Assembly: GCA_029246415.1 (NCBI GenBank)
Contig: JAQWNF010000008.1
Span: forward strand, 1-64,000
Direction: 5' to 3'
Source: Glaciecola sp.
GTDB taxonomy: Bacteria; Pseudomonadota; Gammaproteobacteria; Enterobacterales; Alteromonadaceae
DNA length: 64,000 bases
A model generated the notes under the pieces. The model was not told where the DNA came from. It saw only the letters and a program-made list of their open reading frames with translations, and searched no databases. The translations under genes and the position numbers were made by a program. Shown here in pieces: positions 8,272-39,134 of this stretch (positions are counted from its first letter, which is position 1; each line of letters begins with the position of its first letter).

Positions 8272-9503
8272 GCTGTAGACTTTTTGTTAAGCACATCTTG
8301 CGTTGAACTGAGTAAAAAGTAAGAAACAATAGTAAAAAATAAAACTACCCCGCCTAAAATTTTGTATGAAAGTGGAAAACCTAAATTGTCATACATCATA
8401 CCGGCAAAAATAGACAATCCAGAAGCCATTAATTGTGTCGAAAACTGAAACCCGACAATATAAAGTGTTGCCGACATACGCGCGTCAAAGATTTGCGTTA
8501 TATATTTAAATATGGCTACCAACATTATGGGTAATTCAACCGCGTGAAGTAGTTTCATTAAAGAAATTGTGATTGTATCATCAGCATATCCTGAGCCAAT
8601 GATACGAATCGCCATAATCAAACCACTTAATATTAGACTATTTTTAGCGCCAATTTTGATTACCAGAAACGGTGCTAAAAACATTCCTCCAGCTTCCAAA
8701 AATACTTGGAATGAATTTAAGTAACCATAGGTTGCATTTCCATCTTGCTGATTTTCAAACATGGATGCAAAGTACACAGGGAACTGTTGGTCATAAACGG
8801 AATAGACGCAAGTCACTCCCATCACAAAAATCACAAATGCCCAAAATTCTCGCATGAATAACAAACTTGAAACCAACTTCAAATCAAATTTTTCTTCATG
8901 TTCCTCATTTATTTTCTTAACAATCTGGTCTGTCTGACTAAGCGCAAGTGAAAAAATTAAAACAATAAACACACAAGCACTCAATGACGCTAACCAAAAG
9001 TTAATGTCGGGTCCTTTGTTAAATAAGTAACCAGCACAAAAAGTAGCAACGGCCCACCCTAGTGAACCCCACATTCGAGCGCGTCCAAATTCAAAACCAC
9101 TTGTCCTGGCCACCCTCTCTACATAACTCTCAAGCACACCAATTGCAGCCCCAAAAGCAAGCGCAAAAAACAATCCGCCCAAAATAGCCGCTGAATAAAA
9201 ATGACTAAGTAACAGAGGACTGTATACAAAAATAAAAAAAGGACCGACCGCCAGTAAGAGTAAGGCAATAAAGAACAGTAAATTTTTGCGTAAGACAAGT
9301 TTGTCTTGCAGATAGCCATAACATGGCATAACAAACAGTGCCGCTATAGCATTACAACTGAAAATGATGCCAATCATTTCTCCTGTAAGCCCAACATGTT
9401 GACTGAGCCAAATGGGAAATAATGAGAATGAGAATGACCAACATAAAAAGAAGCTAAAAAAAGCACCACTTAAAATCCAGTAAGTTTTTTTCGAATTTAT
9501 CAC
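8265..9503 (-). CDS. CscB-like sucrose/oligosaccharide:H+ symporter (MFS)
   Basis: The 412-residue protein has 12 predicted transmembrane helices. It resembles E. coli CscB/LacY over its length: FSLFPIWLSQHVGLTG in helix 1-2, GYLQDKLVLRKNLLF in the first cytoplasmic loop, FEFGRARMWGSLGWA in helix 5, ANFWLASLSA-like helix 6, YDQQFPVYFASMFE and YGYLNSFQVFLEA in helices 7-8, and LLHAVELPIM in helix 10. That places it in the oligosaccharide:H+ symporter family, probably importing sucrose or short fructans across the inner membrane. Translation starts at GTG (9501-9503) with GAGAG upstream. No operator copy was found in its own upstream region, which follows a terminator. Confidence 0.85.
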   Translation of the reverse strand: MINSKKTYWILSGAFFSFFLCWSFSFSLFPIWLSQHVGLTGEMIGIIFSCNAIAALFVMPCYGYLQDKLVLRKNLLFFIALLLLAVGPFFIFVYSPLLLSHFYSAAILGGLFFALAFGAAIGVLESYVERVARTSGFEFGRARMWGSLGWAVATFCAGYLFNKGPDINFWLASLSACVFIVLIFSLALSQTDQIVKKINEEHEEKFDLKLVSSLLFMREFWAFVIFVMGVTCVYSVYDQQFPVYFASMFENQQDGNATYGYLNSFQVFLEAGGMFLAPFLVIKIGAKNSLILSGLIMAIRIIGSGYADDTITISLMKLLHAVELPIMLVAIFKYITQIFDARMSATLYIVGFQFSTQLMASGLSIFAGMMYDNLGFPLSYKILGGVVLFFTIVSYFLLSSTQDVLNKKSTAQ

Positions 9504-12600: not shown

Positions 12601-14590
12601 CATCATCACTATGTAAATCAATAAATTGGACAACAGCACTTTGGCCCTTAAATTCCCTTACATCCCAACTGGTCCATTGCATGCTATTAGCAACATTTTG
12701 TCCGCTGGCAGAGCGCACTACGTCACCGTTAATAAGCAATACAACGGCAGTTGCAGCAGCACTACTATAAGGGTTACTCCCGCCACCAACAAGAAAGTTA
12801 ATATAGTTGCTATCTATTACAAATGCTGGACTTAACATTGTGCCAACCGCGGCACCACCTAATTGAGCGACTTGATCAGAACCTTCGTTAGCACCATCAC
12901 CATAACTTGAAAAGACTCTTTCGCCTACATGACCGGCAACATCAGCTCCCCAAAATCCACCGTCTAATTTAGCAAAGTCACCCGTTATTTCAGTAAACTC
13001 ATGGACTTCGTACGTGCCAAACTTACCGCAGCAAAACTCAAACCCAGCAATATTCTGAAATTCATCAGCGGCGCGTAAAAATAAACTATTGCCCTCTGTA
13101 ATCGGCGTCATTGTTAGCTCAACAGGGGGTATTGTGGGTTCTACAACTGGACCCGTATCTTCAATTTCAGCTGCAGGAAGATTTGCGGCACGAAACTCAT
13201 CTGCTAACAAATATGACAAAGCACTGTCATTGCCATCATTACTATTCAAATCAATGAATTTAATTTGCGCAGTCTTTCCAATATATGACGAGACATCCCA
13301 GCTTGTCCACTGCATGGCGTTAGCTACGTCACTACCACTTGCATCGCGCACTATGTCGTCTTCAATTAACAGCGCCACCGCGGTTGCTTTATCACTATCA
13401 AATGAATGACTACCGCCACCCACTAAAAAGTTGATATATAGCGAATCAATTACAAAGGAAGGACTCAGCATTGTACCTACAGCTTCCCCACCTAATTGTG
13501 CAACTTGGTCAGACCCGTCCTCAGCACCATCGCCATAACTCGAGAACACGCGCTCGCCAATATGGCCTTCTACGTCAGCTCCCCAAAAACCACCGTCTAA
13601 CTTGGCAAAATCACCCGTTATTTCGGTAAACTCATGTACTGCATAGGTACCAAATTTTCCACAGCAAAATTCAAATCCAGCAATGTTCTGAGCGGCGTCT
13701 GCTTCACGAACAAACAAGCTGTGTCCCTCTGACTCTGGGGTCTGGGTCAATTCTTTGCTCAGCTTGGTCGGTATTGCTGCTGGAATATCTGCCGCACGAA
13801 ATTCATCTGCTAATAGATAAGGTAGGTGCGCATCGTTGCCATCATCATTGTGCATATCAATAAACTTTATGGCTGCTATTTGGCCTGTCATTTCTGATAC
13901 ATCCCAACTGGTCCAAACCATTTTGTCTGCAACATCGTCGCCACTAGCTGCTCGCACCACGACTCCATTTACAACCAAGGCAACTGCGGTGGCTTTATCA
14001 CTGTCATAAGGGTTGCTGCCCCCACCGACTAAAAAGTTAATGTAATTTGATTGAATTTCAAATTCAGGACTTTGCATTGTTCCCGTCGCAGCCCAACCTA
14101 GTTGTGCAACTTGATCGGAGCCATCTTCAGCACCATCGCCATAACTCGAGAAAACACGTTCTCCGATATGTCCATCAATTGCCGCGCCCCAAAAGCCGCC
14201 GTCTAACTTCGCAAAATCTCCCGTTATATCTGTAAATTCATGGGCTTCATAGGTACCAAATTTACCACAGCAAAACTCAAACCCTGCAATATTTTGAAAG
14301 ACATCACCTTGTCGAACAAATAGACTATTACCCTCAGTTGCAGGTTGGTCAGTAATTTCAATTACTGGGCCTGTCGGAGGTGTAGTTGTCGGTGGTGTAG
14401 TTGTCGGTGGTGTAACTACTGGACAACCTTGACTCGTTAACTCACAAGCATCTTGCCCAACTTCAAGAACAACAACTTCTATATCTGTGTCTTGTTTATT
14501 GTCCCCCGAACAGGCGCTTAAATTGACTAAAGCTCCTACGCCAATCATTGTTGATATCGCAATCTTTCTCAATTTTAATATATGCATCAT
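9695..14590 (-). CDS. Surface lipoprotein: five repeated beta-sandwich domains, calcium-type linker and C-terminal GH32-like domain (1631 aa)
   Basis: The signal peptide ends in lipobox LSAC, then comes a Thr/Pro stalk (TPPTTTPPT). Five copies of a roughly 195-residue domain follow, at about residues 85-280, 285-480, 497-690, 770-970 and 980-1170. Each has AGFEFCCG, FxxLDGGxWxA, an SYGDG segment, YINFLVGGG and SWDV. Copies 3 and 4 are separated by about 70 residues of thrombospondin-3-type DxDxDG repeats (about 690-760), which usually bind calcium. Residues about 1177-1631 form a GH32-type five-blade propeller plus C-terminal sandwich, with Asp1194 (IDPNP), Asp1312 (FRDP) and Glu1365 (LEVTD) at the nucleophile, stabiliser and acid/base positions. 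The motifs are diverged from WMNDPNG and ECP. The repeats are homologous to the domain inserted in the neighbouring 708-aa enzyme. Likely a fructan-binding surface protein with fructanase activity; activity is unproven. Confidence 0.85.
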   Translation of the reverse strand: MMHILKLRKIAISTMIGVGALVNLSACSGDNKQDTDIEVVVLEVGQDACELTSQGCPVVTPPTTTPPTTTPPTGPVIEITDQPATEGNSLFVRQGDVFQNIAGFEFCCGKFGTYEAHEFTDITGDFAKLDGGFWGAAIDGHIGERVFSSYGDGAEDGSDQVAQLGWAATGTMQSPEFEIQSNYINFLVGGGSNPYDSDKATAVALVVNGVVVRAASGDDVADKMVWTSWDVSEMTGQIAAIKFIDMHNDDGNDAHLPYLLADEFRAADIPAAIPTKLSKELTQTPESEGHSLFVREADAAQNIAGFEFCCGKFGTYAVHEFTEITGDFAKLDGGFWGADVEGHIGERVFSSYGDGAEDGSDQVAQLGGEAVGTMLSPSFVIDSLYINFLVGGGSHSFDSDKATAVALLIEDDIVRDASGSDVANAMQWTSWDVSSYIGKTAQIKFIDLNSNDGNDSALSYLLADEFRAANLPAAEIEDTGPVVEPTIPPVELTMTPITEGNSLFLRAADEFQNIAGFEFCCGKFGTYEVHEFTEITGDFAKLDGGFWGADVAGHVGERVFSSYGDGANEGSDQVAQLGGAAVGTMLSPAFVIDSNYINFLVGGGSNPYSSAAATAVVLLINGDVVRSASGQNVANSMQWTSWDVREFKGQSAVVQFIDLHSDDGNDASVPYLLADEFRGADKAARDPYEAQRDTDSDGILDINDNDDDGDGVDDIDDVFPTDPSETIDTDNDGVGNNADEDDDGDGINDVDDSNPLDPDNTPVFEVQLTTTPSTSGHSLFARQSDPGQNIAGFEFCCGGYDTYQEHEFEEVTGDFLKLDGGFWGAGVAGTIGERVFSSYGDGFDNDSDTSAEHIGLAATGSLKTPAFIIDANYINFLIGGGVNRFDQANATAIVLLVNGDIVRQATGQNEHDSMQWLTWDVIDLAGESAQVMIIDNHADDNSDNSLAYVLADEFRASDEPAAVPKSDSVISFSASALTSTPESEGAPAFTRLNAEAQNIAGFEFCCGGYNTYQEHDFFATGDMIYLNGGQWAADITNHIGDRVLATYGESFVDSNATDAGFLGWEATGTLKSPSFMISASYINFLVGGGTNTFDMDNATAIVLRVNGKIVRQASGNGLEKELSWDSWNVSALIGMQAQIEVMDHHDNAQDDGSFPFIIVDQIRQANKAASQPAADSVVSSVQTYSQILNLDMIDPNPIMLDGVLHVFYLQNVGYHSWGLIKTEDLISSTAPVEVLKASGDDNRHDQFLGSGSVLVDQEGKTHIFFTGHNRQISPVEQVYHAIAEDKSLYNWTVLEDEIFSGSSGYSDFDFRDPMVFWNQSTGNYWMLITTRYNNEAAIGLYTSNDLSVWTPQEPLYTETSPLNLEVTDFIQLDGHEFIVYSDQRDEEHTVKYLVKENGVWVKPTMDSLDGRRFYAAKSAGSSTDKLLMAWVAGSDGRSDSGSEEFGGNFMAHQLDVTNDGQLAVKMPELYREALVNVLSTSSASASGNVTENAGEVNIPAGSHMLLASEASKNRLSFTINSDNESAIFGVQFKDTSDNSEHFVEINGTTNEVTFYNKDDRSNTANPQVLSTIDPLLGVNIEILLDPVQGIGAVYVNDFRALSFRLYDLATSEVGVYAQSDDISVSGITRFK
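11325..11333. repeat. Nine-base C/G homopolymer inside the 1631-aa lipoprotein gene
   Basis: Nine consecutive C on the + strand (G in the coding strand) encode the Gly-Gly-Gly of YINFLVGGG in repeat 5. The other copies of this motif use mixed glycine codons. A tract of this length can slip. Confidence 0.7.
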
Positions 14591-14783: not shown

Positions 14784-16910
14784 TCATTTTTCGGCCTGCT
14801 CTGAAGAAACCCATACTGTCGAAAATTTAGCGATGCTAGCATCACTTACAGTAAAGTTTTCTAGTGACGATAGTGCTACGCCTGCCAATATAGATTGCGG
14901 AAAAACAAGCGCCGTCATTACGCTTTCGCCTTCATTGATGAAAATTTCAATTGAGGAATTATCTACAATAATATCGACGGTATCTTTGCTGCCTTGCGAA
15001 TGAAATGGAGCATATTGAATCCCTGCAAAACCCTCATGAAAGGATACGTCGCCTGATTTAGTGCGGTCGAGAGTAAGAGATGTGTTGACGGTATCAAGTG
15101 AGATTATCACTTTATCGCCAGCCAGATTGAACAGTTCAATCTCAATTATTTGCTGCTCTATATCGCTCAAAGCGAAATTCACTCTGAACGAATTATCAGA
15201 TATGGAAGGAGAACTAAGTAGATACTTATTTTGACCCATAAACGGACCTAGTTCATCAATCACTTGCTCAGCAGCACTCACTTCTTTTACGGGTGACGAC
15301 ACTAACCTTACTCCTTCACTCGTGGTTTTCAGTGACAAGGTCCGAGGTATCGTCATTGCACTGCGAAACGACTTAGTAGGTACTTGATTAGCGTATTGCC
15401 AATTACTCATCCAGCCCATTAGAATCGAACGACCGTCGGTTTTGGGCATATCAGAAAACGTTACTCCAGCATAATTATCCGTTCCAGTGTCAAGCCAAAC
15501 TGCTGGTTCAATCCGGTTTGTTGCAAGCTCATCAGAAAAAACAATTTGATCAATATAGGTGTGTCCCCAACTGCCACTTTCTGAGTCGATTATTTTTATA
15601 CTAGCTGTTTTCCCGATGTACTCATTGACATCCCATCCAGCAAATCTGAATTGTTCACTGTTTATTCCTGTCGCAGAGCGCACCACAACATTATCTATGA
15701 TAAGTTGCATGCCAACTTTGTTGAGGTGCTGTCCACCACCAATGTAAAAATTGATAAACCCTTTGCTGATAATAAATGATTCAGATAACAGAGAACCTAC
15801 GGATGAATCACCGTCGCTAAAACTATTGATTAAATGATCGCCTAAATATCCGCTTAAGGGCGTCTGGTTAAGATGATGGCCTTGCGTTGGTGCGGCCGCA
15901 AAAGCTTCACCTGTTGATTGCCACTTTTCTAGACCATTTTCAAAATCATCAAACACCTCTCCTTCAGGAAAAAACGCTGGTATTTGTTTCAGCGCTTGCT
16001 CAAATGTTGGATCCAGCACGAATTTGCTGCCATCAAAGTCACCAATGAAATACTGTGTTGCTGAGCCGCCGTTAGGACCACCAGAACCAATACTAACGAT
16101 TAAAACGTCCTTACGATTTCCGCTTTCATCTACCTGCAACGAAATTAGATCAGGACACTCCCAAACACCAGAGTGATTACCCCAGCCTTCACCAAAGTAG
16201 CTCTCAAACTTCCAATTGATTAGATTGTCAGATGAATAAAACCCAATCTGCTGGCCCTCGGCCAAGACCATAACCCATTTGTTCGCTGTGCTGTTCCAGC
16301 TCACTTTGGGGTCTCTAAAATCACGTATACCAGGGTTAAGCATTACGGGGTTATTGGCATATTTCTTCCAAGTACGACCGTTATCCAAACTGTAGGCCAG
16401 CCCTTGAGTTTGAAAATCTATCGCTCCCGTTTTTTCAGCCTTGGCATCATGATAAGTAAAAATAGCGACCATTGCCGGATTCTCAAGAGATCCTAGACCG
16501 GAGGTGTTGTTCCAGTCGATAACTGCACTACCTGAGAAAATAGTGCCAAATTCATCGGGATATAATGCAATGGGTAATTCTTCCCAATTAACTAAGTCCT
16601 TGCTTACCGCATGTCCCCAGTGCATTGGACCCCACACTGTCGACTCAGGGTGATATTGATAAAATAGATGATATTCACCTCGATAATAAACCATACCATT
16701 TGGGTCATTCATCCAGTAATTTTGCGGACTAAAGTGAATTTGTGGCCGATACTGTTCGTGATATTCACTTGCATCCCACACACTTTGTGACACCGCGTTT
16801 TGGTTAACTGATTTTGTATCTAAACTCTTTTGAATCATTGAATTACATCCCGCTAGTAAAGTAATAGCTAAGAAGCCTGTAGTAAGTATTTTATTATTTG
16901 AAATTGACAT
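14784..16910 (-). CDS. GH32 beta-fructosidase lipoprotein with an inserted beta-sandwich domain (levanase/inulinase type)
   Basis: 708 residues; signal peptide with lipobox LLAGC (Cys22), so membrane-anchored and probably surface-exposed. All three GH32 catalytic residues are present: Asp69 in WMNDPNG (nucleophile), Asp200 in FRDP (transition-state stabiliser) and Glu251 in WECPD (acid/base). FSGSAV is also present. About residues 316-458 form an extra domain (GDHLINSFSDGD, FINFYIGGG, VVRSATG, GWDVNEYIGKT, WGHTYIDQI) inserted late in the propeller, a layout known from several bacterial fructanases. The C-terminal beta-sandwich starts around residue 530. It hydrolyses beta-fructan (levan or inulin) or sucrose; linkage specificity cannot be read from sequence. 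It begins only about 20 bases after the SP transporter stop and is probably co-transcribed with it. Confidence 0.92.
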   Translation of the reverse strand: MSISNNKILTTGFLAITLLAGCNSMIQKSLDTKSVNQNAVSQSVWDASEYHEQYRPQIHFSPQNYWMNDPNGMVYYRGEYHLFYQYHPESTVWGPMHWGHAVSKDLVNWEELPIALYPDEFGTIFSGSAVIDWNNTSGLGSLENPAMVAIFTYHDAKAEKTGAIDFQTQGLAYSLDNGRTWKKYANNPVMLNPGIRDFRDPKVSWNSTANKWVMVLAEGQQIGFYSSDNLINWKFESYFGEGWGNHSGVWECPDLISLQVDESGNRKDVLIVSIGSGGPNGGSATQYFIGDFDGSKFVLDPTFEQALKQIPAFFPEGEVFDDFENGLEKWQSTGEAFAAAPTQGHHLNQTPLSGYLGDHLINSFSDGDSSVGSLLSESFIISKGFINFYIGGGQHLNKVGMQLIIDNVVVRSATGINSEQFRFAGWDVNEYIGKTASIKIIDSESGSWGHTYIDQIVFSDELATNRIEPAVWLDTGTDNYAGVTFSDMPKTDGRSILMGWMSNWQYANQVPTKSFRSAMTIPRTLSLKTTSEGVRLVSSPVKEVSAAEQVIDELGPFMGQNKYLLSSPSISDNSFRVNFALSDIEQQIIEIELFNLAGDKVIISLDTVNTSLTLDRTKSGDVSFHEGFAGIQYAPFHSQGSKDTVDIIVDNSSIEIFINEGESVMTALVFPQSILAGVALSSLENFTVSDASIAKFSTVWVSSEQAEK

Positions 16911-16929: not shown

Positions 16930-18234
16930 TTAGTATTTAGTTGCCAGCTGTTCTAATGTTTTACCTTTTGTTTCAGGCATTAAAAAGATTACAAACAGAA
17001 GTTGTAAAAACATCATAAACGCAAAGAAGGTAAACACTGCTCCTGGCGTATATTGCTGCAGAAAAAATGGCATAAATAAGGTAATTAGTGCGGCGAATAC
17101 CCAGTGAGTCCCAGACCCTAAAGATTGACCTTTTGAGCGCACACTGTTGGGGAATATCTCGGCAATAAATACCCAAATAACCGCACCTTGCCCAATCGCA
17201 TGAGAGGCAATAAACATAAAGACAAAGAATACCACTACCATCCCTCCTTGATCTGTATTGAATGCCCACGCCACCACAGCCAAAGAAACGATGTAACCCA
17301 ATGAGCCTAAATACATCAAGGTTTTACGTCCCGCTTTATCAATGAGGTATATGCCGATCATGGTAAATACTAAATTAATGACACCTATCCCCGCTGATGA
17401 CAAAAGCGAAGAACTGGCATCTAATCCGGCTAGTTCAAACACTCGAGGTGCATAATAAATGATGAAGTTTATTCCTGATAACTGGTTAAATGCCGCCAGT
17501 AAAAAGGCTAAGGTAATTGGGAAGTTAAAAGTACCAGAGAACAGTTTATCAGTTTTGTGTTGACCAGCTTCGGCCTGAACAGCGGCGACAATCGCCTCTG
17601 CATCTTTTTCTCCAAGGTCTAACAGTATTTCTTTTGCTTTTTCAGCTTTATTGCCATGCAACACTAGCCAGCGAGGGCTCTCTGGTGCTTTAAGTATAAA
17701 GAGCAAGTAAATAAATGCAGGGACAGCTTCGACTCCCAACATAAGTCGCCAATCAAAGCTGGAAGTACCGGCAATAAGATAATTTGATAAAAACGCAATC
17801 AAAATTCCAAATACAATCTGAAATTGATAAATAGCGACTAATCGACCGCGATGTTTTGCCGGTGCAATTTCGGAAATATAAGCAGGCACCACTATCGATG
17901 AAATCCCTACACCCAAACCTCCGATGAAACGCAAAATAGCGAAGGTATAAGGGTCTTGAGCGATCGCCGAACCAATTGCAGATACTAAATATAATATTCC
18001 TATCAAGACCAAAGTAGGTTTACGACCAAATTTATCACAAGGATAGTTTCCTGCTAAAGCACCAATTACAGTACCCCACAGTGCTGATGACATAACAAAC
18101 ATGCCATGCATCAGCGGGCTTGTTTGCCAAAGCGTCTGAATTGGCTTGTCTGCCCCCGAAATAACAGCAGTATCAAAGCCAAATAAAAATCCGGCTACGG
18201 CTACTGTGATTGACCAAAATGCGATTTTATTCAT
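16930..18234 (-). CDS. MFS sugar:H+ symporter, SP family
   Basis: 434-residue sugar porter. The frame is open from 18288, but the ATG at 18234 has GAGA upstream and gives the usual MNKIAFWSITVAVAGFLFGF start; the longer frame would run into the operator-proximal leader. Sugar-porter signatures are present: GFDTAVISG in helix 1, DKFGRKPTL in loop 2-3, a PESPRWLV-type segment after helix 6 (APESPRWLV), QLSGINFIIYYAP in helix 7, DKAGRKTL and the terminal PETKGKTLEQL. Twelve transmembrane segments. It probably carries fructose or glucose across the inner membrane. The promoter carries the 18-bp operator. Confidence 0.9.
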   Translation of the reverse strand: MNKIAFWSITVAVAGFLFGFDTAVISGADKPIQTLWQTSPLMHGMFVMSSALWGTVIGALAGNYPCDKFGRKPTLVLIGILYLVSAIGSAIAQDPYTFAILRFIGGLGVGISSIVVPAYISEIAPAKHRGRLVAIYQFQIVFGILIAFLSNYLIAGTSSFDWRLMLGVEAVPAFIYLLFILKAPESPRWLVLHGNKAEKAKEILLDLGEKDAEAIVAAVQAEAGQHKTDKLFSGTFNFPITLAFLLAAFNQLSGINFIIYYAPRVFELAGLDASSSLLSSAGIGVINLVFTMIGIYLIDKAGRKTLMYLGSLGYIVSLAVVAWAFNTDQGGMVVVFFVFMFIASHAIGQGAVIWVFIAEIFPNSVRSKGQSLGSGTHWVFAALITLFMPFFLQQYTPGAVFTFFAFMMFLQLLFVIFLMPETKGKTLEQLATKY

Positions 18235-18280
18235 ATAAATCTCTATTTCAAAATTAGCAAGCGCAACTAACTTGCACAAA

Positions 18281-18298
18281 TTAAACAACGTTGTCTTT
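18281..18298. promoter_or_regulatory. Predicted LacI-family operator at the SP-transporter promoter
   Basis: TTAAACAACGTTGTCTTT, identical to the sites at 26384-26401 and (reverse) 7059-7076. It is centred about 55 bases before the transporter start and touches the -10 element, so bound repressor would block open-complex formation. Confidence 0.85.
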
Positions 18299-18377: not shown

Positions 18378-21300
18378 TCATTCTTTGTAGGTAATCATCA
18401 TATGTTTGTTTGCTGGAACATTCTTAAGTTGCTGTTTTTGTCCATCAGGCCAAATAACAGTCAGTTTATCAACAACACTATTTAACCCTAGCCCAAAATG
18501 CGCAACTAAAGGGTCATTAGACAGATAGTTTGAGCCCAATCTGATTTCACGCAATTGTTGCATTTGTCCAGTTTGCACAATAATCTTAGCCCCTACTCCA
18601 TCAGGATTGCCTAGTTTACCCACTAACTTTACGGATAAGTAGCCACTGCCTGATAAGTTATTATTACTGTACAGGGTTGGTCCAGCCCCATTGTTGGCGA
18701 TAATGATATCTACATCTCCATCATTGTCGAAATCCAGACAGCTAATTCCTCTACCCTGACCAGTGTGGGTAATTCCCCAATCAAGCGACTTCTCACTAAA
18801 GGTCCCATCTTGATTGTTGATAAATAGGCGGCTGGGATCCTCATAAAATTGCCCTACCTGCGACTCTTCAGCAATCTGCCCAGTGCGCATGCCATTGGTA
18901 TGAAAAATGTCTAACCAGCCGTCATTATTAAAGTCGGCAAAACAAGCTCCCCAGCCCCAATAACCTTGTCGAACACCAGCCCTATCGGTGGCATCCGAGA
19001 AATTACCTTGACCATCGTTATTATAAAGACGGTTTCCAGTTGTTCCGCCTTTATAGGCCTTTTGCTCAATGGGATTCCAAATAGAGCTGACAAACCAATC
19101 TAAGTCACCATCGTTATCGTAGTCCCCAAGGGCCGAGCCCATCCCATTTTCATCATTTATGATTGGACTTGTTGCATCAACAAATTTCTTGTCCTCATTA
19201 AGCAAGACTTGCGTCGTTAAATAATCTGCTGCTATGAGTAAATCCAGATCATTATCATTATCGATATCACTAAAAACAGGTACGAAATTTACATCTAAAT
19301 CAGGATAAAGTGGTGATATTCTAGTTTGAGGTAGCAATGCACTAACGTCTTCAAACATGCCTTTTGCGCTGTTATTCCAAAGATACCCCTGACGCACAGT
19401 GGTTGTTACATCTCCCCAATGTGCAGCAAACAGATCCAAATCACCATCACCGTCATAATCACCAGCGGATAAGGAATGAGTGAATCGCTCAAAGCTTATG
19501 CCTGCCTTGTTAAACGAGGGACGCATAACACCACTTGGAAATTGAGTAAAGAGTCTGAAATATCCTTGATTAATGTCATCCTCTACCAGTAATAAATCTT
19601 TATCACCATCTTGGTCATAGTCCATAAACAATGCGCCCAATTGCCTACCGCTGAAATTGCCTAGTATTTTGGTGGTAACATCAACAAAGCCTCCTTTCTT
19701 GTTATTCACAAAAAGTTTACCTGGTTGCATAGAATGGCTGATAAATAAATCCTCCCAGCCGTCTGCATTAAAATCATCTACGGCAACGCCCCCCCCCATT
19801 AAATGGTATTCATCTGAAAAAGTAGGGGCCGCTAATTTATAATCCAAACCACTTTGCTGAGTGACATCGCTAAACCAGCTAGCTCGCGGGTCTGTTTTTG
19901 GTAAATCACTGAGGGGACTTAATGCTTTAAATGCAGCGGGTGTGTAGGTATCAGCTTGCTCAGAAAAGTTGGCAAAAACGCCCTGTAGCAAGTTTCCATC
20001 GGGTCCCTTGTCGTCGTTACTGGGTAACCATTTCTTTATACAGCTTGGGGTTTGTATACAAGGATCGGTGAGCGTAAATAAAAAGGCTTCCAGCAATAGA
20101 GCATCTTGTTCTGGCGTCGATGTATTCACGAGTTTTTTTGCATCAGGCGTGGCTAAAAAGGTTTGCAGTACCTCTGCGTTTATTGCCTTAGCACGATCGG
20201 GGCGTGCTGCAATATGACTAAATTGGGATAAGTGCTCGAGTCCAAAATTATAATTTGCTAACGACGTTGATGGGTTAAAGTGATGTTTAATAACTTGCTT
20301 AAGATCCGCAAATGCACCGGCATGACTCCAAGGACCCGTTACCTGAACATTTAGCAACATGGGAGTGCGAAACTTGTATTTGTCGGTAATGATCGAAGTA
20401 TTTAAGAGTCGGCCATGGTCGGTACCGCTAGAGTCTTTACCGCGCCCAATTTGCGGTGCTGCGATAGTATAGAACTTCTCATCACTCAAACCAGGGCCTG
20501 AATGGCAAGAATTACAAGCTAGCCCCCCTTGTTTTGGAGTACTAAAAAATAACAAGGCACCTTTTTTAGCTTGTTCTGAAATGGCCTTTTTATTACCGGC
20601 TACATAGTCAAACCAAGGGTTAGTCGTCAGCACCAGTGACTTTTGATAGTGAGACAAGGCCTTAGTTACCCTATCAATGGTGATCACAGTTTCAACATTT
20701 TTCTGAGTATCCTCAAATGCGTTTTGAAACAAAGGCAACCATGGAGAGCTTTTGCTTATTTCGTCTGCTTTTAGCAGATTATTTAACACCAACCGTCGTT
20801 TTTGACTATTGCTGTCAAGTTTATTAGGACCATGACCAAACATCTCATGGATTGCAATAATTGGAAATCTGGCTTGTGCCTGAATAAAGTCATTACCCGC
20901 ATTCAAATCAGGCAAGTTCTTTACACTATCAGGGGTGCGCAAACGGATAGTCTTATTCTTGTTGTTTTGCCCTTCGCTGAGCTCTTCGTTTATTACTTCT
21001 ACACGGCCATCCCAAAATGCCGCTTGTTTCAATAAGTGAAGATTAAAGATAGATGATGCATTTCGTGGCGCATTAGGACCACCATCAGCGCGGGGATCGA
21101 CAAGTCGGTTGCCATCATGTACTCGTCCTGGTCCCAGTATGGATGGATCCAATGCATTGACACCAACGGATAATGACAGTCCATCACCACCACCGAGCAT
21201 GGGATGATGACATGACACACAGGCGACATCATTGTTCATACTCAAAGATTTGCTGAAAAAAAGTTGTTGACCTAGTTGCCATAGAGCACCATTTGTCAAT

Positions 21301-21530
21301 GTATCTGTGTTTAAGTGACTGAGTTGCTTTTGCAGTTCAAGTTCTTTAATGCGGACACTTAGTAGCTTATCTAGCTCTGGTTCGCTAAGCTCACTGGTGT
21401 CAAAACCTGATGCTTTTATTAGAATGTCTTCACTAGCCTGAACCACATTTAAAGTGCAAAACACACAGAAAACACAGTAAATAAGAAAGCGATGGCATTT
21501 GTTAATAGTCTGAAATTGATAACTTAACAT
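18378..21530 (-). CDS. Di-haem cytochrome c peroxidase (MauG/CCP) fused to FG-GAP repeats and a C-terminal ASPIC/UnbV domain (1050 aa)
   Basis: Secreted: hydrophobic signal at about residues 14-31, cut near VQA-S. Residues about 80-520 form a di-haem peroxidase with two CxxCH sites, CVSCH at 104-108 and CNSCH near 338-342. Supporting segments include FWDGR, MLLNVQVTGPWSHAGAF and the LxxFLxTLTDP-type end. From about residue 565 there are seven DxDxDGxxD-type FG-GAP/VCBS motifs (first DFNADGWEDLF near 582), which normally bind calcium in beta-propellers. The last 95 residues form an ASPIC/UnbV domain (GNPDGVGAKI, REIRLGSNYLS, HFGLG, VTVIWPDG-like LTVIWPDGQ). The redox partner and substrate are unknown. 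It lies directly after susD but is separated by a hairpin, has no obvious ribosome-binding site and contains a nine-G tract. FG-GAP/UnbV proteins are common beside SusCD in Bacteroidota; fusion to a CCP inside a fructan locus is unusual. Confidence 0.85.
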   Translation of the reverse strand: MLSYQFQTINKCHRFLIYCVFCVFCTLNVVQASEDILIKASGFDTSELSEPELDKLLSVRIKELELQKQLSHLNTDTLTNGALWQLGQQLFFSKSLSMNNDVACVSCHHPMLGGGDGLSLSVGVNALDPSILGPGRVHDGNRLVDPRADGGPNAPRNASSIFNLHLLKQAAFWDGRVEVINEELSEGQNNKNKTIRLRTPDSVKNLPDLNAGNDFIQAQARFPIIAIHEMFGHGPNKLDSNSQKRRLVLNNLLKADEISKSSPWLPLFQNAFEDTQKNVETVITIDRVTKALSHYQKSLVLTTNPWFDYVAGNKKAISEQAKKGALLFFSTPKQGGLACNSCHSGPGLSDEKFYTIAAPQIGRGKDSSGTDHGRLLNTSIITDKYKFRTPMLLNVQVTGPWSHAGAFADLKQVIKHHFNPSTSLANYNFGLEHLSQFSHIAARPDRAKAINAEVLQTFLATPDAKKLVNTSTPEQDALLLEAFLFTLTDPCIQTPSCIKKWLPSNDDKGPDGNLLQGVFANFSEQADTYTPAAFKALSPLSDLPKTDPRASWFSDVTQQSGLDYKLAAPTFSDEYHLMGGGVAVDDFNADGWEDLFISHSMQPGKLFVNNKKGGFVDVTTKILGNFSGRQLGALFMDYDQDGDKDLLLVEDDINQGYFRLFTQFPSGVMRPSFNKAGISFERFTHSLSAGDYDGDGDLDLFAAHWGDVTTTVRQGYLWNNSAKGMFEDVSALLPQTRISPLYPDLDVNFVPVFSDIDNDNDLDLLIAADYLTTQVLLNEDKKFVDATSPIINDENGMGSALGDYDNDGDLDWFVSSIWNPIEQKAYKGGTTGNRLYNNDGQGNFSDATDRAGVRQGYWGWGACFADFNNDGWLDIFHTNGMRTGQIAEESQVGQFYEDPSRLFINNQDGTFSEKSLDWGITHTGQGRGISCLDFDNDGDVDIIIANNGAGPTLYSNNNLSGSGYLSVKLVGKLGNPDGVGAKIIVQTGQMQQLREIRLGSNYLSNDPLVAHFGLGLNSVVDKLTVIWPDGQKQQLKNVPANKHMMITYKE
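19789..19797. repeat. Nine-base C/G homopolymer inside the CCP/FG-GAP gene
   Basis: Nine consecutive C on the + strand encode Gly-Gly-Gly in MGGGVAVDDF, at the first FG-GAP repeat and just after the peroxidase part. Slippage here would leave a peroxidase without the propeller and UnbV domain. Confidence 0.7.
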
Positions 21531-21547
21531 ATTAATTTAATCGTAAG

Positions 21548-21578
21548 AGCAGGTCTGTCAAAATAAGACAGGCCTGCT
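21548..21578. terminator. Intercistronic stem-loop between susD and the CCP fusion gene
   Basis: Twelve-base arms (21548-21559 and 21567-21578) with one imperfect pair and a seven-base loop. There is no T run on the minus strand, so it may be a partial terminator or an mRNA-stabilising 3' structure for susCD rather than a full stop. Confidence 0.5.
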
Positions 21579-21597
21579 AAATTACATTTAATCGAGC

Positions 21598-23310
21598 TTA
21601 ATAACCGGGATTTTGTACATAGATCCCACCACTTAAGTTGATTTGTTGGTTAGGTATAGGTAAATACTCGTGTTTACCTTTCGTAAATGCTGCTGCTTCA
21701 AGATATGGCTTTCTGATGAGTTCAATCTCAAAATAAGCATCTAATGTTTCTTTTGTTACTCCCCAGCGCACTAAATCGAAGAAACGATGCCCCTCTAAAC
21801 CCAGCTCTAAACGACGTTCCCAACGTAACGCATTAAAAGCTTCTTCTTTACTAGCAAAACTACTGTAGGTATTGATGTTATAGATACTGGCATCATTTAA
21901 CATACCTGTGCTATTAGCAGCTCGGGTGCGTAGACTATTGATAATTGGTAATGCTTCCTCATAACGGTCTAATTGAATTAACGCTTCTGCTTTCCACAAC
22001 AATACATCAGCATAGCGAACCAAAACAGTGTTCATTGACCAAATTGGGAATGGACCATTTTCACCACGGCAATCGCAATCAGGATGTTCCAATTCTTTCA
22101 TGCTAGTAAAATTTCCATAGATGCCCGGTGCGCGTGACCAAGAATCACCACCATGAATTAATGTAGGATCATATTTAAAGGGTTTACCTTCCATTGCAAC
22201 AGTATGGTCCAAACGTGGATCAACATTATCAGACAACATATCGTAATTAGCATCATTATAATTTACAAATAATGGTAGACCATTGTTGTTAGTTTTAAAG
22301 GCGTTGACGAAATTATCTGTAGGAACATGAAATCCGCAGCAGCCGAACCCACCAGCCTGAGGTGCATTCAACGCAGTTGGCCATGAACCACGACCATCAG
22401 GTGAGCCGTCATCTAATGAACGCTGTATAGCGAAGACTGATTCTTTGCTATTATCAAAGGCTGCCTGAAAGTTGTTTCCATAGTCATCAAGCAAACCGTA
22501 AATACCGGAAGCTTCAATTTCACTCACCAACGTAACAACTTCATTCAGTTTATCACTATCAATAGACACGATCTCGTGCTTGTCATTTTGCACATACGCT
22601 TGATTCAACAATGTTTTTGCTAGGTAAGCTTTGGCAGAAAGGGCTGAAGCACGGCCTACATCTTGCTGCACATCAGGTAAATTTTGTGAGGCAAAGCGGA
22701 AATCTTCAGCAATTTTATTCCATAATTGTTGATCAGTGAGATCACGGTTAGTGGTCGCTAATATTTCTTCTTGTGTCATATTTTCATCAATCCATGGAAT
22801 ATGCTTATGATGAATTTTCAAGTCAAAATAAAAAATAGAGCGTATAAAACGTAGTTCTGCCTGCTTCTCTTTTGCATTAGGAATACTTGCAGCATCGGCA
22901 TTAGCAATAACTTGTAATCCGGCATTAGCTCGAGATATACCAGTATAATTCCGTGTCCATTTTTTATTGTTAAGATCAATTAGGTCAGGTGGAAAAGATT
23001 CCATATCTGGCACTAAAGGCGCAAACATTGATAGAGCATGATAGGCAAAGATATCACTTGGCCCATTACCCCCTTTATGTGCATCTCCTGCACGTAAATT
23101 ACCAGTTGGCCACAAAAACATAGGCGATGTGTAATGATCATTGCCTAAATAAGAATAGGCTGCAATGACCAAACCATCTATATTCTCAGCACTGGTGACC
23201 TGCGCTTGGGTTAATACGGCTTTGGGTGGAACATCAAGGTCGCCGCTGCCGCAAGATATAACGGACATAGCTATTAAACTACTTGCAAATAATTGATACA
23301 TTTTTTTCAT
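21598..23310 (-). CDS. SusD/RagB-family glycan-binding outer-membrane lipoprotein
   Basis: 570 residues from the ATG at 23310, which has AGAG eight bases upstream; the frame is open to 23364 but the extra residues spoil the signal peptide. Lipobox VISC near residue 17. SusD hallmarks are present: RFIRSIFYFDLK in the tetratricopeptide part, RYADVLLWKAEALIQLD, LRTRAAN, and the C-terminal WERRLELGLEGHRFFDLVRWG and YLPIPNQQINL. SusD caps the SusC barrel on the cell surface and presents oligosaccharide for import. It follows susC by 54 bases in the usual susC-susD order. Finding it outside Bacteroidota is rare. A GCCGFHVP segment near residue 330 is not one I recognise from the family. Confidence 0.92.
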   Translation of the reverse strand: MKKMYQLFASSLIAMSVISCGSGDLDVPPKAVLTQAQVTSAENIDGLVIAAYSYLGNDHYTSPMFLWPTGNLRAGDAHKGGNGPSDIFAYHALSMFAPLVPDMESFPPDLIDLNNKKWTRNYTGISRANAGLQVIANADAASIPNAKEKQAELRFIRSIFYFDLKIHHKHIPWIDENMTQEEILATTNRDLTDQQLWNKIAEDFRFASQNLPDVQQDVGRASALSAKAYLAKTLLNQAYVQNDKHEIVSIDSDKLNEVVTLVSEIEASGIYGLLDDYGNNFQAAFDNSKESVFAIQRSLDDGSPDGRGSWPTALNAPQAGGFGCCGFHVPTDNFVNAFKTNNNGLPLFVNYNDANYDMLSDNVDPRLDHTVAMEGKPFKYDPTLIHGGDSWSRAPGIYGNFTSMKELEHPDCDCRGENGPFPIWSMNTVLVRYADVLLWKAEALIQLDRYEEALPIINSLRTRAANSTGMLNDASIYNINTYSSFASKEEAFNALRWERRLELGLEGHRFFDLVRWGVTKETLDAYFEIELIRKPYLEAAAFTKGKHEYLPIPNQQINLSGGIYVQNPGY

Positions 23311-23364
23311 AATTTTTCTCTGATTTTTCATCTTTAATCTGTCTATACTATGGAATAAATACAC

Positions 23365-26349
23365 TTAGAAACTCACATCTATGCCGATAGTGATTCGTCG
23401 AGGAACCGGAAAGACCTCATTTGGAGCCTCAGGATCTTGGCTCAAGGTTCCGTTTGGAGTAATGGTTAATAAATTTGATCCCTGAAGATAAATACGGGCA
23501 TCCTGAATACCATAGTCATCTAACACTGTGTCCTCAAATCTGTAACCCACCGACAAGTTTCGTAATTTCAAGTAGCTTCCATCTTCCCAAAAGAAACTCG
23601 ACTGTCTACCTTCACCATTGTTGTCGACTAATGTTAACGCCGGTACTGTCGAGTCAGTATTAGCAAGTGACCATGCATCTAATACTCGCGAACCATAATT
23701 CGAACCAATATTTAATGAGGTGAAATCAGTAAATAGACGCCAGTTATTTCTGACAGACCCGCCTTTTACTCCTTGCCAAAACATATTGAAGTCCCATTGT
23801 TTATGATTAAGAGTAAAGTTGAAGCCGTAGATGAAATCAGGATCAGGGTTAACAAAATAATCCTGATCATTTTCATCAATAATGCCGTTATTATCTAAGT
23901 CTGCCCAACGAATTCGTCCAAGCCCAGCAGCTGATTGAGCAGCGTGCTCTTCTATTTCTTGAAGGCTTTGAAATAATCCATCAGCAACATACCCATAGAC
24001 AGAATTTATAGAGTTACCTAAAATAGTTTTATCTTGACCGTTACCGCCAAATGAATTCACCACATCTTCAGGTAAAGCAATGACCTTGTTGTCTGCTTTA
24101 GAAATGTTAAAACTCATATCAACTTTCAATTCTTCATCCAAGAAATCAAAATCTAAATAATCTTCGTATCCTATAATGAATTCGAAGCCACTATTATCGA
24201 TAGTCCCGCCATTTACCCATTGCTGAGCTCCTTCGCCAAGCGTCGCAAGTGGTTGAGTTAAGGTGAGTATATCTTTGGTTTCTTTTTTGAAATAATCCAA
24301 GCTACCATAAACTGTTGTGTTTAAGAGCTGGAAATCTAGACCTACATTACTTTGAGTCGACGTCTCCCACTTCAAATCAGGATTGCCAGTTTGTGCTCTT
24401 ACAAAACCAGAAGGTAACGTGCCACCATTGGCTCCAGCAATATCGTAAGCGGTACCCTCATCTTGTCTATCCGTGAACAAAGATTGAGTTGCATAGCGAG
24501 GTTGATAAGTCGTGTTTGTAGCAGTTGTTGGAATCTCCTGATTACCTGTTTTACCATAACTAGCACGCAATTTAAGCGTCGATACAAACTCGATATCAAA
24601 GAAATCTTCGTTGCTAATTACCCATCCGGCCGAGGCTGCAGGGAAATTACCATATTGGTTGTTTTGACCAAACTTAGATGAACCATCTCTACGCATAGTC
24701 AAGCTAGCTAGATAACGTTGATCGTAACTATAATCGACCCGACCAAATATAGAATCTAAAGTCCATTCGTCGCCATAACCCTCGACCCTTACATTGTCAG
24801 TTGCTTGTGATAAGAATGCGAAATCACGATCATCCGATGCAAAACCAGACCCGATACCTCTTGATAATTCGGTTTCAAAATCAATTTGTTCTATACCTGC
24901 TAAGAAAGTAAATTTGTGCTTATCATCCAACAACAATTTGTATTCTGCGGTAGTAGCTAACACAATACTTCGATTCCAATTGTTTTCAACCGAAAGGTTA
25001 TCGCTAAAATTTAGCGTGCCCGCCTGATATCCACGCTGGAAATTTCTAAAATTGAACTGCCCATAGTCAATGCCAACACTACTGCGTAATTTTAGGTCTT
25101 CAATCGGCGAATATTCTAGAAAGAAACTACCTTGAAATTTGTTAAACGTATGATTATTATCTCTATTTCTTTCAATTATACCTACTGGATTATCTCTATC
25201 AGTAATGCCTGGAACCGGGCCACCCCATCCGCCTGCATCATTATATACCGGTACGATCGATTGCTGTTCAATGGAAAGCCCTAGTATACTTCCTGCTAAA
25301 TCATTTATTAGATTAGCTCGTTGATTAGTAACAAGTAAGGTTTGCCCAACCTTAAGTTTATTTTCAATAAGATCATGATCAGAATTGACCCTAAACGCAA
25401 TCCGTTCAAATTTTGAGCCATCAACAACTCCTTCAGCATTAAAATAACCTAATGAAGTATAAAATCGAGAACTGTCACTGCCTCCTGACAAAGATAAATT
25501 AAGGTCTCTTACTTGAGATGAGCGTGTTACTTCATTAAACCAATCCGTATCAGCTGGTCTTTGTACACCGTTTGGATCTGTAAAAGCTGGCAAGATCACC
25601 TTGTACAATTCAGGATTATCATAATCCTTATTCCAATCGTAGGTATACAAAGCACTTGCTCGATCAGGATTTGAACCATCATTAATAGCCGCTTGCCATA
25701 CCGATTGTGCACGTTGCGCAGTGTTAAGAGGTCGTAGATCATAGTCAAAATCTTCAAAAGTTTGATTGAATCTAAAGTTAAAGTCTAAACCCTCTCTACC
25801 CTTTTTAGTAGTTACTACAATTACGCCATTACCAGATCTAGCACCATAAATGCTGGCTGCTGCTGCATCCCTTAACACCTGTATGTCTTCAATGTCATTA
25901 CTGTTAATTTCGTGCAAACCACTTTTTGACGGAATACCGTCAATAATATAAAGGGGATCATTGTTACCCAATGGGCCTAAACCCTGACCACGAATGCGTA
26001 CTGTCGCGGTGGAACTAGGGTTACCATTTGTAGTAATTTGCAAGCCAGGAACCCTGCCTTGTAGATTTTGCATGACGTTACCCGCGGGTAAATCAATTAC
26101 GTCTTCTAATTTCACCGTTGATATCGCACCGGTCAAGTCTGATTTTTCAACAGAGCTGTAACCATAACTAACTTCTATTATTTCAATATCGTTATTTTTT
26201 TTAGCTACTTCACTGACAAGTAAATTAGGTGATTCTTTATTCTCAACGTCTTGTGCTTGCGCCATACTTGGAATCATTAGCATTAATGAACAGTTAAATA
26301 ATACTGCCCTAATGCTAAATGAAAGTTGATTTAGTTTTAGATTTTTCAT
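23365..26349 (-). CDS. SusC/RagA-family TonB-dependent oligosaccharide transporter
   Basis: 994 residues; signal peptide cut near AQA-QDV (about residue 32). The plug has the SusC signature: NVMQNLQGRVPGLQI, VRIRGQG, PLYIIDGIP, INSNDIEDIQVLRDAAAASIYG and NGVIVVTTKKG. The barrel ends with YLQGSNLLTI, DPEAPNEVFPVPRRITIGI and a terminal Phe. The N-terminal carboxypeptidase-regulatory-like extension usual in Bacteroidota SusC is missing: only about 25 residues separate the signal peptide from IEIIEVSYGY, which may serve as the TonB box. It imports the fructan oligosaccharides presented by SusD, powered by TonB-ExbBD. AGGATGG lies upstream of the start. The promoter carries a full operator copy. 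Confidence 0.93.
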   Translation of the reverse strand: MKNLKLNQLSFSIRAVLFNCSLMLMIPSMAQAQDVENKESPNLLVSEVAKKNNDIEIIEVSYGYSSVEKSDLTGAISTVKLEDVIDLPAGNVMQNLQGRVPGLQITTNGNPSSTATVRIRGQGLGPLGNNDPLYIIDGIPSKSGLHEINSNDIEDIQVLRDAAAASIYGARSGNGVIVVTTKKGREGLDFNFRFNQTFEDFDYDLRPLNTAQRAQSVWQAAINDGSNPDRASALYTYDWNKDYDNPELYKVILPAFTDPNGVQRPADTDWFNEVTRSSQVRDLNLSLSGGSDSSRFYTSLGYFNAEGVVDGSKFERIAFRVNSDHDLIENKLKVGQTLLVTNQRANLINDLAGSILGLSIEQQSIVPVYNDAGGWGGPVPGITDRDNPVGIIERNRDNNHTFNKFQGSFFLEYSPIEDLKLRSSVGIDYGQFNFRNFQRGYQAGTLNFSDNLSVENNWNRSIVLATTAEYKLLLDDKHKFTFLAGIEQIDFETELSRGIGSGFASDDRDFAFLSQATDNVRVEGYGDEWTLDSIFGRVDYSYDQRYLASLTMRRDGSSKFGQNNQYGNFPAASAGWVISNEDFFDIEFVSTLKLRASYGKTGNQEIPTTATNTTYQPRYATQSLFTDRQDEGTAYDIAGANGGTLPSGFVRAQTGNPDLKWETSTQSNVGLDFQLLNTTVYGSLDYFKKETKDILTLTQPLATLGEGAQQWVNGGTIDNSGFEFIIGYEDYLDFDFLDEELKVDMSFNISKADNKVIALPEDVVNSFGGNGQDKTILGNSINSVYGYVADGLFQSLQEIEEHAAQSAAGLGRIRWADLDNNGIIDENDQDYFVNPDPDFIYGFNFTLNHKQWDFNMFWQGVKGGSVRNNWRLFTDFTSLNIGSNYGSRVLDAWSLANTDSTVPALTLVDNNGEGRQSSFFWEDGSYLKLRNLSVGYRFEDTVLDDYGIQDARIYLQGSNLLTITPNGTLSQDPEAPNEVFPVPRRITIGIDVSF

Positions 26350-26383
26350 ACATCCATCCTGTGTGTGTGTTTGGATAACTCAT

Positions 26384-26401
26384 TTAAACAACGTTGTCTT
26401 T
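26384..26401. promoter_or_regulatory. Predicted LacI-family operator at the susC promoter
   Basis: TTAAACAACGTTGTCTTT, identical over 18 bases to the two other sites, centred about 43 bases before the susC start codon and just downstream of the promoter elements, at or near the expected transcription start. Confidence 0.85.
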
Positions 26402-26435
26402 ATACATTAATATAACGTTCATGTACAACTGTCAA
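26399..26435 (-). promoter_or_regulatory. Sigma-70-type promoter of susCD
   Basis: On the minus strand a perfect TTGACA (26430-26435) is followed after 17 bases by TATTAA (26407-26412). A second possible -10, TATAAA (26399-26404), abuts the operator as in the SP-transporter promoter. Either reading gives a strong gammaproteobacterial promoter, not the Bacteroidota -33/-7 type. Confidence 0.75.
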
Positions 26436-26594
26436 CATATATTTAACAAAAGTTCTACTGTTTCGATCAGTTAATCAGGATTTAATAAGATTTGTTTATC
26501 AATCACAAGACGAATTGGCTTTACGCGATCATAATTACGATTGCTAAAAGCGGTAGATTTAACTTAAATGCTCTGTGATATTTGGACATAAAAA
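26436..26594. other. Right boundary of the fructan locus, no gene seen
   Basis: AT-rich spacer between the susC promoter and the gcvP terminator. Short frames on both strands have no recognisable product. No inverted repeats, tRNA end or direct repeat that would mark an integration junction was seen. Confidence 0.5.
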
Positions 26595-26631
26595 GACCCC
26601 CAGTAATTGGATAGTCCAACTATTGGGGGTC
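26595..26631 (-). terminator. Rho-independent terminator of gcvTHP
   Basis: GACCCCCA...TGGGGGTC stem of 17 bases per arm with two G-T type positions and a three-base loop, followed on the minus strand by TTTTTAT. It lies about 115 bases after the gcvP stop. Confidence 0.85.
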
Positions 26632-26681
26632 ACTTCACCATTTCTGGTTCGCTTTTTTGATCTCAATGAATGCTTGTACCG

Positions 26682-38777: not shown

Positions 38778-39134
<357 letters not shown>

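Follow-up and report, generated by a model that had tools for sequence, protein, structure and literature searches.

How does a chromosome of the gammaproteobacterium Glaciecola sp. come to carry a SusC/SusD importer, when SusD is described in passages of several papers as unique to Bacteroidetes and lost on transfer? Passages of PMC5698469, PMC8319329, PMC6262041, PMC12175321 and PMC7874173 confine SusD to Bacteroidetes or give it as absent from gammaproteobacterial polysaccharide utilisation loci (PULs). A passage of PMC11678492 calls susD ‘unique to the order Alteromonadales’ with reference to other work; we take this as a slip for Bacteroidetes, the source cited there being unchecked. No report of a gammaproteobacterial SusCD was found in the partial texts of the literature searched, subscription journals being outside its scope. 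The stretch analysed here, termed the window, covers the opening 64 kb of contig C25; the genome it belongs to has 2.96 Mb and is 99% complete, with 0.3% contamination. We propose that the SusC/SusD importer, around which its fructan locus is arranged, was acquired by a gammaproteobacterial ancestor from the fructan locus of a Bacteroidota donor and later spread between gammaproteobacteria, with a probability of roughly 0.85. The sequence-based support consists of the homology to the levan SusCD, the tree placement, the ancestry of the sugar porter, the loss of the N-terminal extension (NTE) of SusC, the changed SusD signal and a palindrome shared at the susC promoter.

The pair claimed in a first-pass annotation of this DNA stands, as both proteins pass their family models above the cut-offs (Table 1). 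SusC comprises a TonB-dependent transporter plug (PF07715) and a beta-barrel (PF00593), while SusD is an adjoining lipoprotein (lipobox found by eye and by script) and the only PF07980 match in its own genome; the two open reading frames abut at 23364/23365. The interval first assigned to the pair, 18378-26435, does hold it, but also takes in a third gene (18378-21530, minus strand) that is neither SusC nor SusD. The best structural relatives of both proteins in the PDB are the levan SusCD of Bacteroides thetaiotaomicron, identified via entry 6z8i, which is Bt1762-63 according to a passage of PMC7782687. The same source lists as contacts of fructo-oligosaccharides in the levan SusCD the residues D41, N43, D67, W85, C298/C299, R368 and Y395 of SusD and T380, D383, D406 and N901 of SusC. 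In hand-read alignments with an inferred numbering offset, five of eleven are identical in the window pair (D67, C298, R368, D406, N901) and two are conservatively changed (Y395 to F, D383 to E), whereas the others are changed and W85 lies in a gapped stretch. These hand-mapped residues would fit a related fructan, but do not fix the linkage (levan or inulin). The companions named in the first-pass annotation were borne out as well: two GH32 proteins, a LacY-type carrier, a sugar porter of the major facilitator superfamily (MFS), a PfkB kinase and a LacI regulator. SusCD, GH32, an MFS carrier and a fructokinase, the content of a B. thetaiotaomicron-type fructan PUL, are present together.

The relatives of the pair were sought in a scan of named genomes with SusD, which was seeded by six short peptides, kept the best 80 of 124 loci and is not a census. 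Among these 80, SusDs 66-100% identical to that of the window come from Glaciecola, a Paraglaciecola metagenome-assembled genome (MAG), five Pseudoalteromonas, three Rheinheimera with an adjoining gammaproteobacterial MAG, a Cellvibrio MAG and Marinimicrobium agarilyticum. The next tier consists of three Bacteroidota MAGs (L016, L017 and L018, hereafter the sister loci), the closest found outside Gammaproteobacteria (SusD 63-64%, SusC 55-56%, porter 58%), and the last of 64 loci at 42-48%, which include Bacteroidota and one Balneolota. Because the pair is also present in named isolates (Pseudoalteromonas haloplanktis ATCC 14393, Rheinheimera pacifica DSM 17616 and Marinimicrobium agarilyticum DSM 16975), a binning error cannot explain it. 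The sister MAGs have 15, 10 and 20 PF07980 matches per genome, compared with one each in Cellvibrio, Marinimicrobium and P. haloplanktis. The 31 gammaproteobacterial rows compared below leave out L003 (near-identical to the window), L119, L120, L121, L123, L135 and L136 (the same contigs as named loci, as judged by shared 500-base words) and L137 (from genome G708).

In a tree of SusC and SusD (49 rows, SusC before the plug removed, IQ-TREE mixture model with bootstraps; a quick version was also made), the 28 gammaproteobacterial rows, that is the 31 without the near-duplicate or split-susC loci L116, L124 and L131, form one clade (100/100), which groups with the three sister loci at 100/100. 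In a quick SusD tree (66 rows, nine other SusDs as outgroup), all 31 gammaproteobacterial rows and the sister loci form one group (support 100), next to 23 further fructan SusDs. The 64 other loci contributed 18 rows to the first tree, these 23 to the second and 17 to a quick sugar-porter tree of 66 rows, for which the gammaproteobacterial set was further reduced by L116 and L131, and 23 of 28 fetched non-PUL porter loci were used. There, a single group (98) unites 22 of 23 gammaproteobacterial PUL porters and is itself nested in a larger one of Bacteroidota PUL porters (99). Of the 23 non-PUL porters from the window’s relatives, 22 fall elsewhere, the exception being the one porter of the order-level genome G037, inside the Bacteroidota part. 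A Bacteroidota ancestry of susC, susD and the sugar-porter gene is thereby well supported. The window pair is nested in the gammaproteobacterial clade of the SusC and SusD tree, 92% identical to that of Paraglaciecola MAG_65. Its immediate source was probably another gammaproteobacterium, and these trees place the phylum jump before Glaciecola. Of the transfer first supposed, the Bacteroidota ancestry holds, but not a passage directly into this chromosome.

Two parts of the pair differ between the gammaproteobacterial and the Bacteroidota loci. An NTE profile built from non-sister rows, with the 450 bases upstream also searched in three frames, matched none of 31 gammaproteobacterial SusCs, all three of the sister loci and 60 of 64 others; the four SusC rows that it missed are only 170-568 residues long. 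The window SusC is called an NTE-less variant because it shows neither a match to this profile nor PF13715, of which the domain scan reported none on this protein. Counted from stop to stop, 62-114 residues lie upstream of the plug in 30 gammaproteobacterial SusCs, 117-177 in the three sister loci and at least 112 in 60 others (L128, at 114, overlaps). The NTE is described as present in SusC proteins in passages of the literature; it is not needed to pass TIGR04056. In SusD, the residue at +2 after the cysteine is Gly in 30 of 31 gammaproteobacterial rows (Lys in one), Gln in two and Lys in one of the sister loci, and among the 64 others Ser in 44, Lys in six, Glu in six, Asp in five and Gly, Gln and Asn in one each. 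According to a passage of PMC5080379, the Bacteroidetes lipoprotein export signal sits beside the cysteine as a polar residue followed by acidic ones, SDDFE being the consensus of one species. The gammaproteobacterial SusDs mostly do not conform to it: an acidic residue at +2 or +3 occurs in 4 of 31, compared with 3 of 3 sister loci, all of which keep it at +3, and 53 of 64 others. The mean acidic count over +2 to +6 differs less (1.52, 2.0 and 1.83, respectively). Since the gammaproteobacterial rows are related, each of these differences, like the regulatory one described below, may represent one or a few events and not 31 independent ones. The altered features look like adaptation to new hosts. 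Tentatively, and at less than even odds, we suggest that the crossing required a rebuild, in which SusC lost the NTE, perhaps a docking domain specific to Bacteroidota, and SusD exchanged its signal for a Lol-compatible one; SusD would then take a novel route to the surface (e.g., with SusC via the host barrel-assembly machine) or act on the periplasmic side. If so, the locus would define a minimal, portable SusCD.

A third change concerns regulation. A hybrid two-component fructose sensor was not found among the nine locus proteins scanned, and a LacI regulator is encoded at 7252-8271 instead. The palindrome GACAACGTTGTT has exactly three copies in the window, at 7062, 18284 and 26387, all in the locus near gene starts (0.02 copies expected; three copies in 0 of 100 shuffles); it was first spotted by eye, and its 12-base form was searched afterwards. 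Its core, ACAACGTTGT, lies near the susC start in 25 of 31 gammaproteobacterial loci, compared with 0 of 67 loci of Bacteroidota and relatives. In 21 of these 25, a gene resembling the window lacI accompanies it in the stretch analysed (none was detected in L004, L122, L129 and L132), and no such gene was detected in any locus without the palindrome; the six loci with neither belong to the Rheinheimera group, Cellvibrio and Marinimicrobium. The palindrome is probably a LacI operator. A sigma-70-like promoter pattern, written after looking, occurs in 12 of the 25 operator-bearing loci and in 0.25% of random 62-base windows. The plain TTGAC test gave 2 of 25 at a background of 5.7%, and a general scan for promoters and terminators stayed at the level of shuffles (47 vs 54.5 and 15 vs 15.4). 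The first-pass annotation had the pair working with another TonB and under another regulatory system. For the rewired regulation there is direct support in the sequence, whereas function and TonB partner are inferred only.

Several observations weigh against the proposed history or against an importer that is still at work. The root of the SusC and SusD tree was set on the 18 other Bacteroidota-side rows by choice, and in the quick SusD-only tree the gammaproteobacterial rows as one clade receive a support of 14, the order inside the group not being settled. The Marinimicrobium porter falls outside the gammaproteobacterial porter group, two Bacteroidota PUL porters fall among host-type porters, and the porters of the three sister loci group with flavobacterial and not with gammaproteobacterial ones, so that the exact porter donor is not settled. 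The stacking Trp of the levan SusD is not clearly kept. With one mismatch allowed, the 10-base form of the palindrome is no scarcer in the window than random expectation (5 matches against 3.3). Finally, deletion of the NTE in B. thetaiotaomicron abolished growth on levan (passage in PMC7782687), which means that an NTE-less SusC might be impaired, and the altered signal of SusD may point to a location other than the cell surface.

The missing NTE, the effect of its deletion and the changed signal would all fit a pair that has decayed or been repurposed and is no longer a lidded importer. We regard this as improbable, considering that the SusC frames span 979-1021 residues in 29 of 31 gammaproteobacterial loci (the others 585, split, and 921, on a 4.8-kb contig) and the SusD frames 559-629 residues in 31 of 31, that the palindrome is kept in 25 of 31 and that the block has moved repeatedly.

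Vertical inheritance within Gammaproteobacteria, accompanied by very many losses, is still less probable, although it accounts for part of the pattern. The identities of SusD and GcvP correlate (r 0.73, 276 pairs of 24 genomes), and inheritance is therefore mixed and partly vertical. The window pair does sit within a gammaproteobacterial clade, the placement that the first-pass annotation had set against its own proposal, but that clade is neither widespread nor purely vertical. It spans about ten genera, eight in the family sample plus Cellvibrio and Marinimicrobium, and is rare and patchy. SusD occurs in 26 of 395 genomes (8 of 52 genera) of the family sample, 6 of 394 of the order sample and 3 of 398 of the phylum sample, the latter two all in the window’s family, in 2 of 369 of the class sample and in 2 of 10 of the genus sample (the own genome and G005); the family, order, class and phylum samples overlap, and the own genome counts in each. 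The second class-level hit, G708, lies outside the family and was rejected as probable contamination (5-kb contig, genome with 7% contamination, SusC 29% identical). A GH32 match lies in the fetched stretch of every gammaproteobacterial SusD locus examined, except for the doubtful G708 and the 4.8-kb contig of L004/L136, which ends at susD.

Pairwise comparisons argue in the same direction. SusD is more alike than GcvP in 60 of 233 intergenus pairs (24 genomes), and there are intergenus pairs with 98-99% identical SusD but 79% identical GcvP. G120 (g5) and G158 (g24), with SusD at 99.3% but GcvP at 79.2%, share a block of 91-99% identity per kb; on one side the match stops at the edge of the block, and on the other its end was not reached. 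Between G250 (g5) and G385 (g24), identity of 91-98% is confined to about 3 kb that span susD and a portion of susC, the remaining locus being 71-84% identical. The window and contig C4 of G005 are 83% identical in the first kb and 98.6-100% per kb from 1 to 28 kb; past 28 kb, identity falls to 98.5, 97.0, 92.6 and 87.6% and then stays at 79-87% up to the end of the comparison at about 42.7 kb, the gradual fall running over gcvP-gcvT. Our interpretation is that recombination within shared flanks exchanged some 28 kb. The G005 MAG has 2% contamination, and a mixed assembly is a less probable alternative; the gradual fall disfavours a simple chimera. Taken together, the sequence comparisons indicate that the gammaproteobacterial clade is one that moved between species and genera after the phylum jump. 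As side observations, the approximately 3-kb stretch of high identity over susD and part of susC in L133 and L134, from two genera, has the form of a gene-conversion-like exchange of the lid gene, and the G120 susC in L124 (5963-8925) is divided between two frames that overlap, a copy that may be broken or mis-sequenced.

Mobile elements offer further context. The 672-kb plasmid pCadTS8_1 of Catenovulum adriaticum (L207) carries a fructan SusCD locus in the vicinity of ABC transporter genes and two LacI genes, and the pair is publicly annotated as SusC/RagA and RagB/SusD. The plasmid collection holds 35 records with SusD (one gammaproteobacterial among the 20 listed), and the phage collection seven, all unannotated human faecal contigs. 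Over 48-76 bases, the IS3-end fragment at the gcvP-susC junction shares 83-90% identity with nine plasmid records, in one of which the matching stretch runs into a helix-turn-helix coding sequence followed by an annotated IS3 transposase; no second copy was found in the own genome. The empty site that the first-pass annotation had suggested looking for did not appear: none of the gcvP neighbourhoods of six same-genus genomes holds a clean one (G385 was also compared), and the UPF0231, acyl-CoA dehydrogenase and alkyl sulfatase side of the window is absent near gcvP in these six within the fetched stretches (only about 1.4 kb in G004). In G385 (L206/L133), the fructan locus also lies near the gcv genes, on the other side, beyond gcvT and a LysR gene, which we do not read as an insertion hot spot.

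The opposite direction, in which the three sister loci took the locus back from Gammaproteobacteria, is less probable again. Among the best 80 of 124, no Bacteroidota loci but these three (SusD 63-64%) come close to the gammaproteobacterial clade, and their place beside the gammaproteobacterial groups is not settled in the SusD-only tree. However, they fall outside the gammaproteobacterial clade at 100/100, keep the NTE and the acidic +3 in 3 of 3, and have porters that group with flavobacterial ones. They also look like Bacteroidota loci in kind, with a hybrid two-component system (HTCS)-type sensor in L016 and L018, and PF13715 on SusC, a DUF4960 protein and GH32s with a type IX secretion system (T9SS) tail (Por_Secre_tail) in L018, the domain scan having covered L018 and part of L016. 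Least probable of all is that Glaciecola received the pair directly and recently from a Bacteroidota donor. Such a transfer would suit the presence of SusD in only 2 of 10 sampled genomes of the genus, but not the nested position of the pair (92% to Paraglaciecola MAG_65), its share in the clade’s NTE loss, Gly+2 and palindrome, or the slight contrast in GC content. This contrast, for which a check of 6034-26349 against the flanks had been proposed, is small (40.6% vs 42.2% in the remaining window), and base composition was dropped as evidence of transfer for being too weak.

Based on the protein families encoded (Table 1), we propose the following working scheme, in which (i) one or more surface GH32 lipoproteins would cut the fructan; (ii) SusD would close over SusC as a lid, and the pair would import fructo-oligosaccharides via the host TonB; (iii) a second GH32 would complete hydrolysis; (iv) the sugar porter and the LacY-type carrier would move fructose and sucrose-size sugars inward; (v) PfkB would phosphorylate fructose; and (vi) LacI would repress at three operators until a substrate-derived inducer appears. 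Substrate, import, surface exposure and LacI binding are inferred from the families.

Table 1. Features of the fructan locus and its junction, in window coordinates
Feature	Position	Strand	Basis
SusC-type TonB-dependent transporter, 994 residues, NTE-less	23365-26349	-	TIGR04056 683.8 bits (cut-off 368.25), TIGR04057 55.5 bits (cut-off 46.2); best PDB match 5t3r_D, SusC homologue (E 7.3e-240)
SusD lipoprotein, 588 residues from the listed GTG, lipobox SVISC/GSGDLDV (cleavage at the stroke)	21598-23364	-	PF07980 129.6 bits (gathering score 23.1), PF14322 41.2 bits (gathering score 27); best PDB match 5lx8_A, SusD homologue (E 1.8e-124)
MauG-like diheme peroxidase/FG-GAP/ASPIC-UnbV fusion, 1050 residues, two CxxCH	18378-21530	-	PF03150, PF13517, PF07593; TIGR03981 193.8 bits, below cut-off 340
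Sugar-porter MFS carrier of Bacteroidota ancestry	16930-18288	-	PF00083 362.4 bits, TIGR00879 367.1 bits; tree
GH32 beta-fructosidase-type lipoprotein, motifs WMNDPN, RDP, ECPD	14784-16910	-	PF00251 313.8 bits
1631-residue GH32 lipoprotein, five modules of ~195 residues, then GH32 domain	9695-14590	-	PF00251 94.7 bits, residues 1192-1439; predicted fold of module
LacY-type sugar:H+ symporter	8265-9503	-	PF01306 437 bits; NF007077 523.1 bits
LacI-family regulator	7252-8271	+	PF00356, PF00532
PfkB fructokinase-like kinase	6034-6996	-	PF00294 211.6 bits; best NCBIfam match fructokinase 193.8 bits, below cut-off 450
Putative LacI operator, 37 bases upstream of susC ATG	26387-26398		GACAACGTTGTT, exact copy
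Putative LacI operator, just upstream of sugar-porter ATG	18284-18295		GACAACGTTGTT, exact copy
Putative LacI operator, between kinase gene and lacI	7062-7073		GACAACGTTGTT, exact copy
End fragment of IS3-family element, gcvP-susC junction	26562-26637		Similarity to plasmid DNA

Downstream of susC and susD, and on the same strand, follow the genes of the MauG/FG-GAP/ASPIC fusion, the sugar porter, the shorter GH32, the five-module GH32 and the LacY-type symporter; beyond the latter lie lacI on the opposite strand and the kinase gene. The true starts are probably the ATG at residue 12 or 19 for SusD, at 18234 for the sugar porter and at 7279 for LacI. The flanks agree with those first annotated (gcvTHP, alkyl sulfatase and yacL), with gcvP-gcvH-gcvT on one side and the alkyl sulfatase and UPF0231 genes, together with one for an acyl-CoA dehydrogenase, on the other. 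Elsewhere in the window, a bacterial RNase P class A RNA gene lies at 38776-39134 on the minus strand (334.1 bits).

For the five-module part of the larger GH32, the domain scan reported no Pfam family, and no PDB sequence match was obtained for the module. The five tandem modules carry an invariant FEFCCG motif, and the other four are 48-74% identical to the reference module. A model of the module built from 14 sequences (pLDDT 86.1) weakly resembles CBM4-type and other jelly-roll domains (best E 1.2e-4, TM 0.48); the same list of fold matches holds domains that do not bind carbohydrate, such as reelin repeats and gingipain adhesin domains. Another model of the module was poor (mean pLDDT 52), and its fold search (nothing at E 0.001) was discarded. 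The predicted fold is a jelly-roll, and the modules may form a family that binds fructan. Besides G005, the genomes G385, G204, G219 and G234 have the MauG/ASPIC fusion in their loci, with two CxxCH in all six rows including the window; the loci L133 (from G385), L115, L116 and L117 carry it beside fructan SusCD. Of the sister Bacteroidota loci, L016 and L018 encode ASPIC proteins that have no CxxCH, and L017 has one recognised by similarity alone.

In summary, the gammaproteobacterial clade, culturable isolates included, provides a counter-example to the confinement of SusD to Bacteroidetes. What is new is the synthesis and not the label, as public annotation already labels such genes on the Catenovulum plasmid. 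The locus represents a natural test of what the importer needs for working in another phylum, and the changes common to the clade name the NTE, the lipoprotein export signal and the sensor as candidate incompatibilities. Two questions thereby become genetically testable, namely the role of the NTE and the route by which a SusD lid gets to the cell surface when the Bacteroidota pathway is absent.

Among known systems, the levan SusCD of B. thetaiotaomicron (Bt1763/Bt1762) is homologous to the window SusC from the plug to the C terminus and to SusD over almost the full length, and its locus, Bt1754-65, likewise combines GH32s, an MFS carrier and a fructokinase (passage in PMC7782687). In contrast to it, the window pair has no NTE on SusC and a Gly after the SusD cysteine, LacI replaces the hybrid two-component sensor, and a LacY-type carrier, a MauG/ASPIC gene and a five-module GH32 are added. 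The sister loci differ from the window in the NTE (3 of 3), the HTCS-type sensor (L016, L018) and the DUF4960 protein and T9SS-tailed GH32s (L018), none of these domains being found in the nine window proteins scanned. The alginate, carrageenan and agar PULs of related gammaproteobacteria share with the window locus a TonB-dependent receptor beside carbohydrate-active enzymes (passages in PMC5943477 and PMC5698469); these PULs are described there as being without a SusC/SusD pair, whereas the window locus has one.

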